Shown: positions 1,309-4,400 of the stretch, one piece after another | Layout of the letters: every line of letters starts with the position of its first letter | Position numbering within the stretch: position 1 is the first letter of the stretch | NCBI GenBank assembly: GCA_030141605.1 | Contig: JAQGDQ010001545.1 | Coordinates: forward strand, 1-35,345 | DNA: 35,345 nt | Direction of reading: 5' to 3' | Origin: Tubiluchus corallicola | Lineage: Eukaryota > Priapulida > Priapulimorpha > Priapulimorphida > Tubiluchidae | The notes under the pieces: model-generated | Databases searched by the model: none | What the model was told of the DNA's origin: nothing | Seen by the model: the letters and a program-made list of their open reading frames with translations, nothing else | Translations under genes and position numbers: made by a program

Positions 1309-1443
1309 ACTTGACATATTGCCCTAACAGAGCAAAGAAATGCTGGACATTTTCCGGATGAAACTGACGCAGTAAAGTCATTGTACCAACTACAAATGCC
1401 ACTTCATCTAGGTGTTCATTGATCTTTTTAGACTGGAGCATTC
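1287..1443 (-). CDS. WASHC5: WASHC5 exon 18 of window, bracketed by edge-derived tandem arrays
   Basis: 157 nt, phase 1 in, phase 2 out. Acceptor GTGTTTTTGTAG, donor GTAATT. The split codon G|GA gives G, followed by [40 protein letters not shown] and [11 protein letters not shown]. The LLRQFH...LLGQ part matches human LLKQFHSRYTEQFLALIGQ; the first ~12 residues do not resemble the human VCRKPTDPVDWPP. The first 31 exon bases belong to the 52-bp repeat unit and the last ~22 to the 36-bp unit. The start at 1443 is chosen because it alone restores the phase from exon 17. A start near 1416 is also preceded by AG but would drop ten residues. The final coding exon lies left of the window. Confidence 0.88.
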
Positions 1444-4400
1444 CTACAAAAACACAAGTTCGTATGTTCATTGATCTTTTTAGACTGGAGCATTCCTACA
1501 AAAACACAAGTTTGTATGTTCATTGATCTTTTTAGACTGGAGCATTCCTAGAAAAACACAAGTTTGTATGTTCATTGATCTTTTTAGACTGGAGCATTCC
1601 TAGAAAAACACAAGTTTGTATGTTCATTGATCTTTTTAGACTGGAGCATTCCTAGAAAAACACAAGTTTGTATGTTCATTGATCTTTTTAGACTGGAGCA
1701 TTCCTACAAAAACACAAGTTTGTATGTCCATTGATCTTTTTAGACTGGAGCATTCCTACAAAAACACAAGTTTGTATGTTCATTGATCTTTTTAGACTGG
1801 AGCATTCCTACAAAAACACAAGTTTGTATGTTCATTGATCTTTTTAGACTGGAGCATTCCTACAAAAACACAAGTTTGTATGTTCATTGATCTTTTTAGA
1901 CTGGAGCATTCCTGCAAAAACACAAGTTTGTATGTTCATTGATCTTTTTAGACTGGAGGATTCCTATAAAAACACAAGTTTGTATGTTCATTGATCTTTT
2001 TAGACTGGAGCATTCCTACAAAAACACAAGTTTGTATGTTCATTGATCTTTTTAGACTGGAGCATTCCTACAAAAACACAAGTTTGTACGTTCATTGATC
2101 TTTTTAGACTGGAGCATTCCTACAAAAACACAAGTTTGTACGTTCATTGATCTTTTTAGACTGGAGGATTCCTACAAAAACACAAGTTTGTACGTTCATT
2201 GATCTTTTTAGACTGGAGCATTCCTACAAAAACACAAGTTTGTACGTTCATTGATCTTTTTAGACTGGAGCATTCCTACAAAAACACAAGTTTGTATGTT
2301 CATTGATCTTTTTAGACTGGAGCATTCCTACAAAAACACAAGTTTGTATGTTCATTGATCTTTTTAGACTGGAGCATTCCTACAAAAACACAAGTTTGTA
2401 CGTTCATTGATCTTTTTAGACTGGAGGATTCCTACAAAAACACAAGTTTGTACGTTCATTGATCTTTTTAGACTGGAGTATTCCTACAAAAACACAAGTT
2501 TGTATGTTCATTGATCTTTTTAGACTGGAGCATTCCTAGAAAAACACAAGTTTGTATGTTCATTGATCTTTTTAGACTGGAGCATTCCTAGAAAAACACA
2601 AGTTTGTATGTTCATTGATCTTTTTAGACTGGAGTATTCCTACAAAAACACAAGTTTGTATGTTCATTGATCTTTTTAGACTGGAGCATTCCTAGAAAAA
2701 CACAAGTTTGTATGTTCATTGATCTTTTTAGACTGGAGTATTCCTACAAAAACACAAGTTTGTATGTTCGTTGATCTTTTTAGACTGGAGTATTCCTACA
2801 AAAACACAAATTTGTATGTTCGTTGATCTTTTTAGACTGGAGTATTCCTACAAAAACACAAGTTTGTATGTTCATTGATCTTTTTAGACTGGAGTATTCC
2901 TACAAAAACACAAGTTTGTACGTTCATTGATCTTTTTAGACTGGAGCATTCCTACAAAAACACAAGTTTGTACGTTCATTGATCTTTTTAGACTGGAGTA
3001 TTCCTACAAAAACACAAGTTTGTATGTTCATTGATCTTTTTAGACTGGAGGATTCCTACAAAAACACAAGTTTGTACGTTCATTGATCTTTTTAGACTGG
3101 AGCATTCCTACAAAAACACAAGTTTGTATGTTCGTTGATCTTTTTAGACTGGAGGATTCCTACAAAAACACAAGTTTGTACGTTCGTTGATCTTTTTAGA
3201 CTGGAGGATTCCTACAAAAACACAAGTTTGTATGTTTATTGATCTTTTTAGACTGGAGTATTCCTACAAAATACAAGTTTGTATGTTCATTGATCTTTTT
3301 AGACTGGAGCATTCCTACAAAAACACAAGTTTGTATGTTCATTGATCTTTTTAGACTGGAGCATTCCTACAAAAACACAAGTTCGTATGTAAAGTAACTC
3401 AAAACATCATGAACTTTAATAAAGTCAAAATTAAGCAGCACAGGACATAACGGAAGATAATGAGTAATCCACATCAATTATCCACATCATAATCATCATC
3501 ATCATCACCACCACCACCACCATCATCATCACCATCATCATCATCATCACCGCCATCATCATCATCACCATCATCATCATCACCACCATCACCATCATCA
3601 TCTTCACCATCATCATCATCACCACCATCATCATCATCATCACCATCATCATCTTCACCATCATCATCATCATCATCATCATCATAACCACCATCACCAC
3701 CACCATCATTATCTTCACCATCACCATCATCATCGTCATCAATTATCCACATCAGTGATCTCAAAACATAATTTTACTCGCCCACTATTATCATCCATCT
3801 TATTCCAAAAATCATTCATATCGATTAACATGCATTTGAATTTTACAATAGGCCTATAAAAAATATGCTAATATTATTTTTCTAATGACGACCTGTTTTA
3901 CGTTGAGCCAAGATACCAAAACTAAATTAAAACTAAGATATGATGCTTCAAAGTAGAATGCAACAAAAATTTTGGTCAAATGTCAATTTTTTTATAAAAA
4001 CAAATGCTAAATATATTGGACTGTTATATTCTAATATCAAATTATCAAGAAAATGTTCAAAAAATACTAAAAATCTAATTTTATAACCCATACCCATTTC
4101 TTTGCCTAGAATTAGTACTGCAATTGTAAAAAACTTGTATTACAAACTCTGATAGTACCTCGTGGAAGCAGTCATTTTGCTTTGTGTTTTTTCTGTTGCC
4201 AAGCACAGATAAAAACACAGAACACTATAGCAGAGCAAACGCGACTTCTTATTACATGAAATGATATAGTAACTTTATAGTAGCTAAAATATGTCACATA
4301 TTTAAAATAAGTAAACGTTAACCATCATAGAAACTTGAAAATCATAATTATGTCACAACAAAAGCAATTTTACGACCGAACTTTTTAAATAGGAAAACAT

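Follow-up and report, generated by a model that had tools for sequence, protein, structure and literature searches.

When one splice junction stands tens of times in tandem beside an exon, which copy does the spliceosome use, and what makes it choose that copy? The question is raised by a contig of 35,345 bases (C747, here called the window) from a 343.5-Mb assembly of 2,344 contigs. In it, one exon of a conserved gene stands between 38 acceptors and 8 donors, near-identical within each set, which amounts to a natural experiment on splice site choice. The conserved protein comes from one acceptor/donor pair only, and RNA from the locus could gauge how strictly position alone guides the choice.

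The strumpellin gene and its exon 18

The minus strand of the window encodes strumpellin (WASHC5; PF10266), subunit 5 of the WASH complex. Our model joins 18 exons, from 33011 down to 1287, into one frame of 788 residues with 0 stops (66 and 49 stops in the other two frames). Among the 120 matches listed, the closest protein to the whole model is that of Priapulus caudatus (80% identity), and the remaining ones reach at most 73%. The source animal is probably a priapulid or close to one. We searched the assembly with the Priapulus protein and found its N-terminal part on contig C1072, its middle on the window contig, exon 18 on both the window contig and a further contig, C1303, and exon 19 on C1303; no second complete strumpellin gene was seen in this search. 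Exon 19 has its acceptor at about C1303:63375, in a phase that fits the donor at 1287, and it has a donor of its own. The parts of the gene that concern us are the following (a slash in a sequence marks the boundary between exon and intron).

1287..33011, minus strand: strumpellin/WASHC5 gene, 18 exons in the window, 788 aa
6093..6189, minus strand: exon 17 of the gene model, donor CTGG/GTAAGT
1444..6092, minus strand: intron 17, 4,649 nt, 42% of which is the acceptor array
1287..1443, minus strand: exon 18, 157 nt, phase 1 in and phase 2 out, in an open model colinear with homologues

Homology is what places the start of exon 18 at 1443: the first codons line up without a gap with those of Priapulus, Owenia, Branchiostoma, Babylonia, and Centruroides, and with those of mouse apart from one residue missing in mouse. 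A start elsewhere, for example near 1416, which a preliminary description of the window had named as the finding that would overturn its account, is ruled out by homology across the 17/18 junction. A search for RNA-derived fragments of the source species found none (the protein search for such fragments gave 4 matches at 54 to 67% identity), and a search of solved structures with exon 18 returned chance matches only.

Both junctions of exon 18 are repeated in tandem

The preliminary description had proposed that the junction of intron 17 and exon 18 is amplified about 38-fold into a 52-bp array at 1413..3390, each unit combining 21 intron bases with 31 coding bases. Both parts of this proposal hold. 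TRF placed the array at 1413-3390, with a period of 52, 38.1 copies, and 97% matches, and unit alignment showed that each unit, read on the minus strand, consists of 21 bases of intron 17 ending in AG followed by the first 31 bases of exon 18.

1413..3390, minus strand: 52-bp minisatellite with 38 acceptors, from TRF, unit alignment, and spacings; unit TACAAACTTGTGTTTTTGTAG/GAATGCTCCAGTCTAAAAAGATCAATGAACA
1444..1464, minus strand: intron part of the exon-adjacent acceptor, presumably the authentic one; TACGAACTTGTGTTTTTGTAG
996..1309, minus strand: 36-bp minisatellite at the exon 18 donor junction, 8.7 copies by TRF; about 23 to 24 exon bases plus 12 to 13 intron bases

The 38 acceptors run from 1443 to 3366, with a spacing of 52 in 36 of 37 steps and of 51 in the remaining one, and the AG is intact in every unit (38/38). 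The units fall into 16 types with a mean pairwise identity of 0.96. Within the acceptor array, like types are adjacent 7 times, compared to 3.5 times in shuffles (P = 0.044). A G at position -18 is found in both edge units and in none of the 36 inner units, as would be expected if edges escape homogenization. A short ACA flanks the unit on its intron and exon sides; the shared motif fits duplication at short homology, although three bases prove little.

The donor side, which the preliminary description did not report, is repeated as well, and the feature is two-sided. Eight donors of the form CAR/GTAATTTGTG follow exon bases 1287, 1251, 1215, 1179, 1143, 1107, 1071, and 1035, and a ninth donor of the 36-bp array, at 999, is degenerate. 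Exon 18 thus lies between repeated copies of its own start and end junctions.

A 72-base query from the acceptor array, searched against the assembly DNA, found the locus on the window contig and on C1303 only (a search of this kind passes over simple repeats and words of very high frequency). Within the same limits, we rejected a dispersed mobile element carrying splice sites: the unit occurs on only these two contigs, both of them at the strumpellin locus.

Stretching the exon to other acceptors or donors gives stops

Between the acceptor at 1443 and the donor at 1287, exon 18 is 157 nt long and its frame is open. This exon-adjacent copy gives the conserved protein, colinear with the homologues, as had been claimed. 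When the exon was stretched to the upstream acceptors, a stop appeared in 37 of 37 cases. Thirty-six of these stops fall at exon nt 65, where they are the very TAA that had been singled out beforehand (GCT CCA GTC TAA), and one falls at nt 116. The statement that only the exon-adjacent unit keeps the frame is thereby borne out as long as nothing but the exon start is moved. Stretching to the other well-formed donors also brought in an in-frame TAA shortly beyond the regular exon end (7/7). Since exon 19 on C1303 has a fitting phase and its own donor, stops that follow from stretching the exon would lie before a further junction, again in line with the earlier claim. It is well established that transcripts with a stop upstream of a further junction are decayed (nonsense-mediated decay).

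Position seems to decide which copy serves

We scored the acceptors with a matrix built from the remaining 17 acceptors of the gene; no more than 17 sites underlie the splice matrices. The used acceptor scored 4.07, and the 37 decoys scored between 3.52 and 6.61, with 35 higher than the used one, one equal, and one lower. This argues against decoys that are weaker in sequence. Among the nine donors, seven (including the used one) scored 5.64, one scored 3.07, and one scored 1.7. Folding predictions over three sequence lengths left 0.29, 0.21, and 0.42 of the used acceptor's tract and AG unpaired, compared to a decoy mean of 0.31, 0.30, and 0.30; predicted pairing at these three lengths does not support decoys hidden by RNA structure. 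Because neither score nor predicted pairing singles out the used acceptor, position remains, and it is position, not sequence, that seems to decide which copy serves. The used exon of 157 nt compares with 209 to 2,080 nt when decoy acceptors are used and with 193 to 2,080 nt over all alternatives tested.

The preliminary description had expected the first acceptor to win, as in scanning from a branch point. This part was not supported. Preference for the first acceptor is a rule of intron definition, whereas Carranza and others report that splice sites closest across the exon are preferred where the flanking introns are long (PMC9225289). For 3' sites under exon definition, the same report describes an upstream preference that is significantly reduced, not plainly reversed, and it ends this part with the general remark that the sites nearest to each other across the exon win out (PMC9225289). 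Exon-centric proximity of this sort predicts the innermost pair at our locus, where intron 17 spans 4,649 nt; the cases treated in the report are competing site pairs (from an alternative-site database and minigenes) and not arrays of tens (PMC9225289). The first-acceptor expectation also goes against amphioxus genes of like structure, which are reported to splice normally (PMC3087553, PMC3902484).

Taken with the arrays, their junction content and intact signals, the stops met on stretching the exon, and a different exon-adjacent unit on C1303 (see below), the locus is probably best explained by junction arrays that were born by slippage and are tolerated because exon definition pairs the innermost sites. 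Two locus-specific minisatellites would have grown by tandem duplication from both splice junctions of one strumpellin exon. They would then have been shaped by gain, loss, and exchange of units, in the manner of the amphioxus arrays known as "mirages." The spliceosome would pair the acceptor and donor that are closest across the exon (157 nt versus 193 to 2,080 nt) and mostly ignore the other 37 acceptors and 7 donors, and mis-spliced transcripts would be removed by nonsense-mediated decay. A deletion reaching the exon would put another acceptor copy in place. Since each unit holds a full acceptor, the gene could survive turnover of the array.

A second contig has another unit next to the exon

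The end of C1303 overlaps positions 1-1913 of the window with 97.8% identity, and from this identity and overlap, C1303 is probably the other haplotype. The donor array is identical on the two contigs over its 314 bases. From the donor array up to 1412 (417 bases), the contigs differ at two positions, both of them silent changes within exon 18. C1303 ends inside the acceptor array, and its last units could hold an assembly error. Its exon-adjacent unit carries -10A and -3C, and the next one is identical to type F of the window (-4A, +5C). The third unit has -4C and a 36-nt step to its neighbor, after which types B, B, C, B, B, and M follow up to the contig end. In the window, units 10 (type E, -3C) and 11 (type F) stand in the same order as this C1303 pair, each of them occurring once among the 38, and beyond type F, the unit orders of the two arrays diverge. 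The 8 further acceptors of C1303 also give stops. Read most simply, the alleles differ by nine units beside the exon, and the acceptor in use on C1303 corresponds to an interior copy of the window array.

The same data leave some room for a bolder idea, which we put forward tentatively: the exon may renew its own junctions. Spare acceptors and donors would lie on its two sides, unequal exchange would replace the copy in use, and the working site would be chosen purely by position. The C1303 acceptor would then be a former interior decoy, brought to the exon by the loss of nine units, unless it was the window allele that gained nine. If this is true, a housekeeping gene has as its working splice site one shifting unit of a satellite array. 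The two contigs do show different copies in the working place.

The difference near the exon between the window contig and C1303 could also suggest a rheostat, the idea of the preliminary description: a sizeable share of transcripts would use decoy sites and be decayed, so that strumpellin output would follow array length, which would vary between alleles. In favor are intact decoys, most of which score at least as high as the used site, and the stops met on stretching the exon. C1303, however, ends within the array and gives no total array length, and the amphioxus mirages were reported without aberrant mRNAs (PMC3087553, PMC3902484), so we consider a rheostat unlikely.

The two-sided pattern in an array-rich gene

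Minisatellites make up 22.8% of the window (18 arrays with a period of at least 10). When these 18 minisatellites were placed at random 20,000 times, at least two junctions were covered in 33% of placements, and one exon had both junctions covered in 1.75%. Chance in an array-rich gene explains the overlap as such and explains the two-sided pattern less easily, in a test that is post hoc. Around the other 34 junctions, no copy better than 19/30 bases ungapped was found within 2.5 kb. A 45-bp array at 26602-27285 starts 17 nt after the donor of exon 27414-27302, with the junction not included.

The rarity of the two-sided pattern in the random placements, together with the AG kept in 38/38 units, could be taken to mean that the arrays are kept as helpful, many sites gathering U2AF/U2 and U1 and easing exon recognition. 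We find such an aid to splicing improbable: covered junctions as such are common in the placements, the test was picked once the case was known, and near-identical units (mean pairwise identity of 0.96) are expected from recent turnover alone.

As a control, we used Cpn60/TCP1 (48 matches) and myosin (93 matches), from which 43 segments were taken, 41 of them with flanks. None of the 41 coding segments, in 84 kb, lay within 15 nt of a minisatellite, which speaks against boundary arrays as a general trait of the genome, with the limit that some Cpn60 contigs may be other organisms. Minisatellite content was 1.2% in the 84 kb around these segments versus 22.8% in the window. At 11 loci (L006-L016) selected through a dispersed repeat, it ranged from 0 to 24%; therefore, minisatellite density is uneven across the genome, and 1.2% is not the genome's value. 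Cpn60/TCP1 was found in single long frames on several contigs (L017-L019, L021-L026) and as short split exons on others. The assembly may contain DNA of other organisms.

Possible use of decoys as exons in their own right

Not every use of a decoy has to run into a stop. A G at +31 in ten of the 37 upstream units creates a GT after 30 exon bases (at 2119 and nine other positions), and placing the 30-nt piece between exons 17 and 18 left the frame open in 10/10 cases, adding 10 residues. The ten units could in this way supply in-frame 10-residue repeats, or upstream acceptors could form a regulated poison exon. The donor in question, AAC/GTACAA, scores 4.6, within the range of the gene's donors (0.02 to 10.37). 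It has a C at -1, however, and GTACAA is far from GTRAGT, the usual donor consensus. Exons of 30 nt are also hard to define, and the inserted repeat is absent from six aligned homologues. We give the use of decoys as separate exons little credence.

An assembly error in the length or presence of the array is very improbable: the gene falls on three contigs, with one contig end inside the array, and the far end of the window has a 98.5% inverted copy, but both arrays are present on two contigs with differing orders of the 52-bp units, and 16 unit types among 38 are unlike a stuttering copy.

Relation to known minisatellites at exon boundaries

Minisatellite-like duplications of intron-exon boundaries, the mirages, are reported from the amphioxus gene Adh3 and from the globin genes BflGb6 and BflGb9 (PMC3087553), with PGBD5 and troponin C as further cases (PMC3902484). 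The mirage of BflGb6 takes in the 3' end of the intron and the exon start, and that of BflGb9 takes in the 3' boundary of the exon (PMC3087553). The report describes copy number differences between haplotypes, edge exclusion, and, by RT-PCR, regular splicing left undisturbed, as well as somatic instability of the Adh3 mirage (PMC3087553).

The strumpellin arrays resemble these cases closely. In amphioxus, too, tandem units span a boundary and repeat its splice signal, both 5' and 3' boundaries are affected, copies vary by haplotype, edge units escape homogenization, and the unit lengths lie in a similar range (10 to 72 bp in Adh3 and 150 to 160 bp in the globins) (PMC3087553, PMC3902484). Both of our arrays consist of a tandem unit that spans a boundary with its splice signal. 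The exon appears to be a real coding exon of an intact gene, judging by the 788-aa open model that is colinear with homologues, and the unit order differs between the window contig and C1303, presumably between alleles. Unlike the amphioxus genes, the strumpellin host probably belongs to another phylum, its nearest protein being that of Priapulus. BflGb6 has 6 and 3 units in two haplotypes, compared to 38 acceptors here, and in the globins, the 3' and 5' cases are found in different genes, whereas both junctions of one exon are affected in strumpellin (PMC3087553, PMC3902484). PGBD5 is reported to have repeats at 5' and 3' sites (PMC3902484).

From titles and abstract starts, with most subscription journals outside the coverage, we recognized no report of a boundary minisatellite in an ecdysozoan. 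What is new for the mirage kind is probably the occurrence in a phylum for which no report was found, along with the high copy number and, likely, the exchange of the working acceptor between alleles. The locus would extend boundary minisatellites from lancelets, with related human cases, to a probably ecdysozoan phylum.

One of the human cases is IFI6 (6-16), in which a minisatellite is said to provide multiple splice donors (Turri, in 1995). In this gene, two of the repeats farther downstream serve as donors, giving three mRNAs (PMC4526556). The IFI6 array is known from the donor side only. The IFI6 minisatellite carries splice donors, as does the 36-bp array of strumpellin. The downstream donors are used in IFI6 (PMC4526556), whereas those of strumpellin lead to an in-frame TAA in 7/7 well-formed cases (the degenerate ninth donor excluded), which argues against a donor array that makes isoforms.

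In human paralogues, variable internal tandem repeats have been reported at exon-intron boundaries and may cause novel introns (PMC2812944). These, too, are minisatellites able to alter the structure of a gene, and some lie at a boundary (PMC2812944). Novel introns are possible there (PMC2812944), whereas the strumpellin alignment shows no new intron. We rejected intron gain by tandem duplication at our locus, as the homologue alignment has neither an insertion nor an extra intron at exons 17 and 18.

Other repeats in the window

The window holds further repeats besides the minisatellites. An inverted duplication (33299-35345 versus 27210-29258; 98.5% identity) runs to the contig end and places partial copies of exons 3 and 4 on the plus strand; it is either a true inverted duplication or an assembly fault. 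Within intron 17, two stretches of 3760-5080 (query bases ~168-451 and ~842-1070) match dozens of contigs, in most cases at 85 to 93% identity, and are therefore dispersed repeats. About 86 imperfect CAT copies at 3485-3741 lie close to the acceptor array. The window starts with a TATAG microsatellite (1-94), which reaches ~139 copies on another contig (L003, 3722-4427), and a long TATAG tract may be the reason why the window contig ends there.
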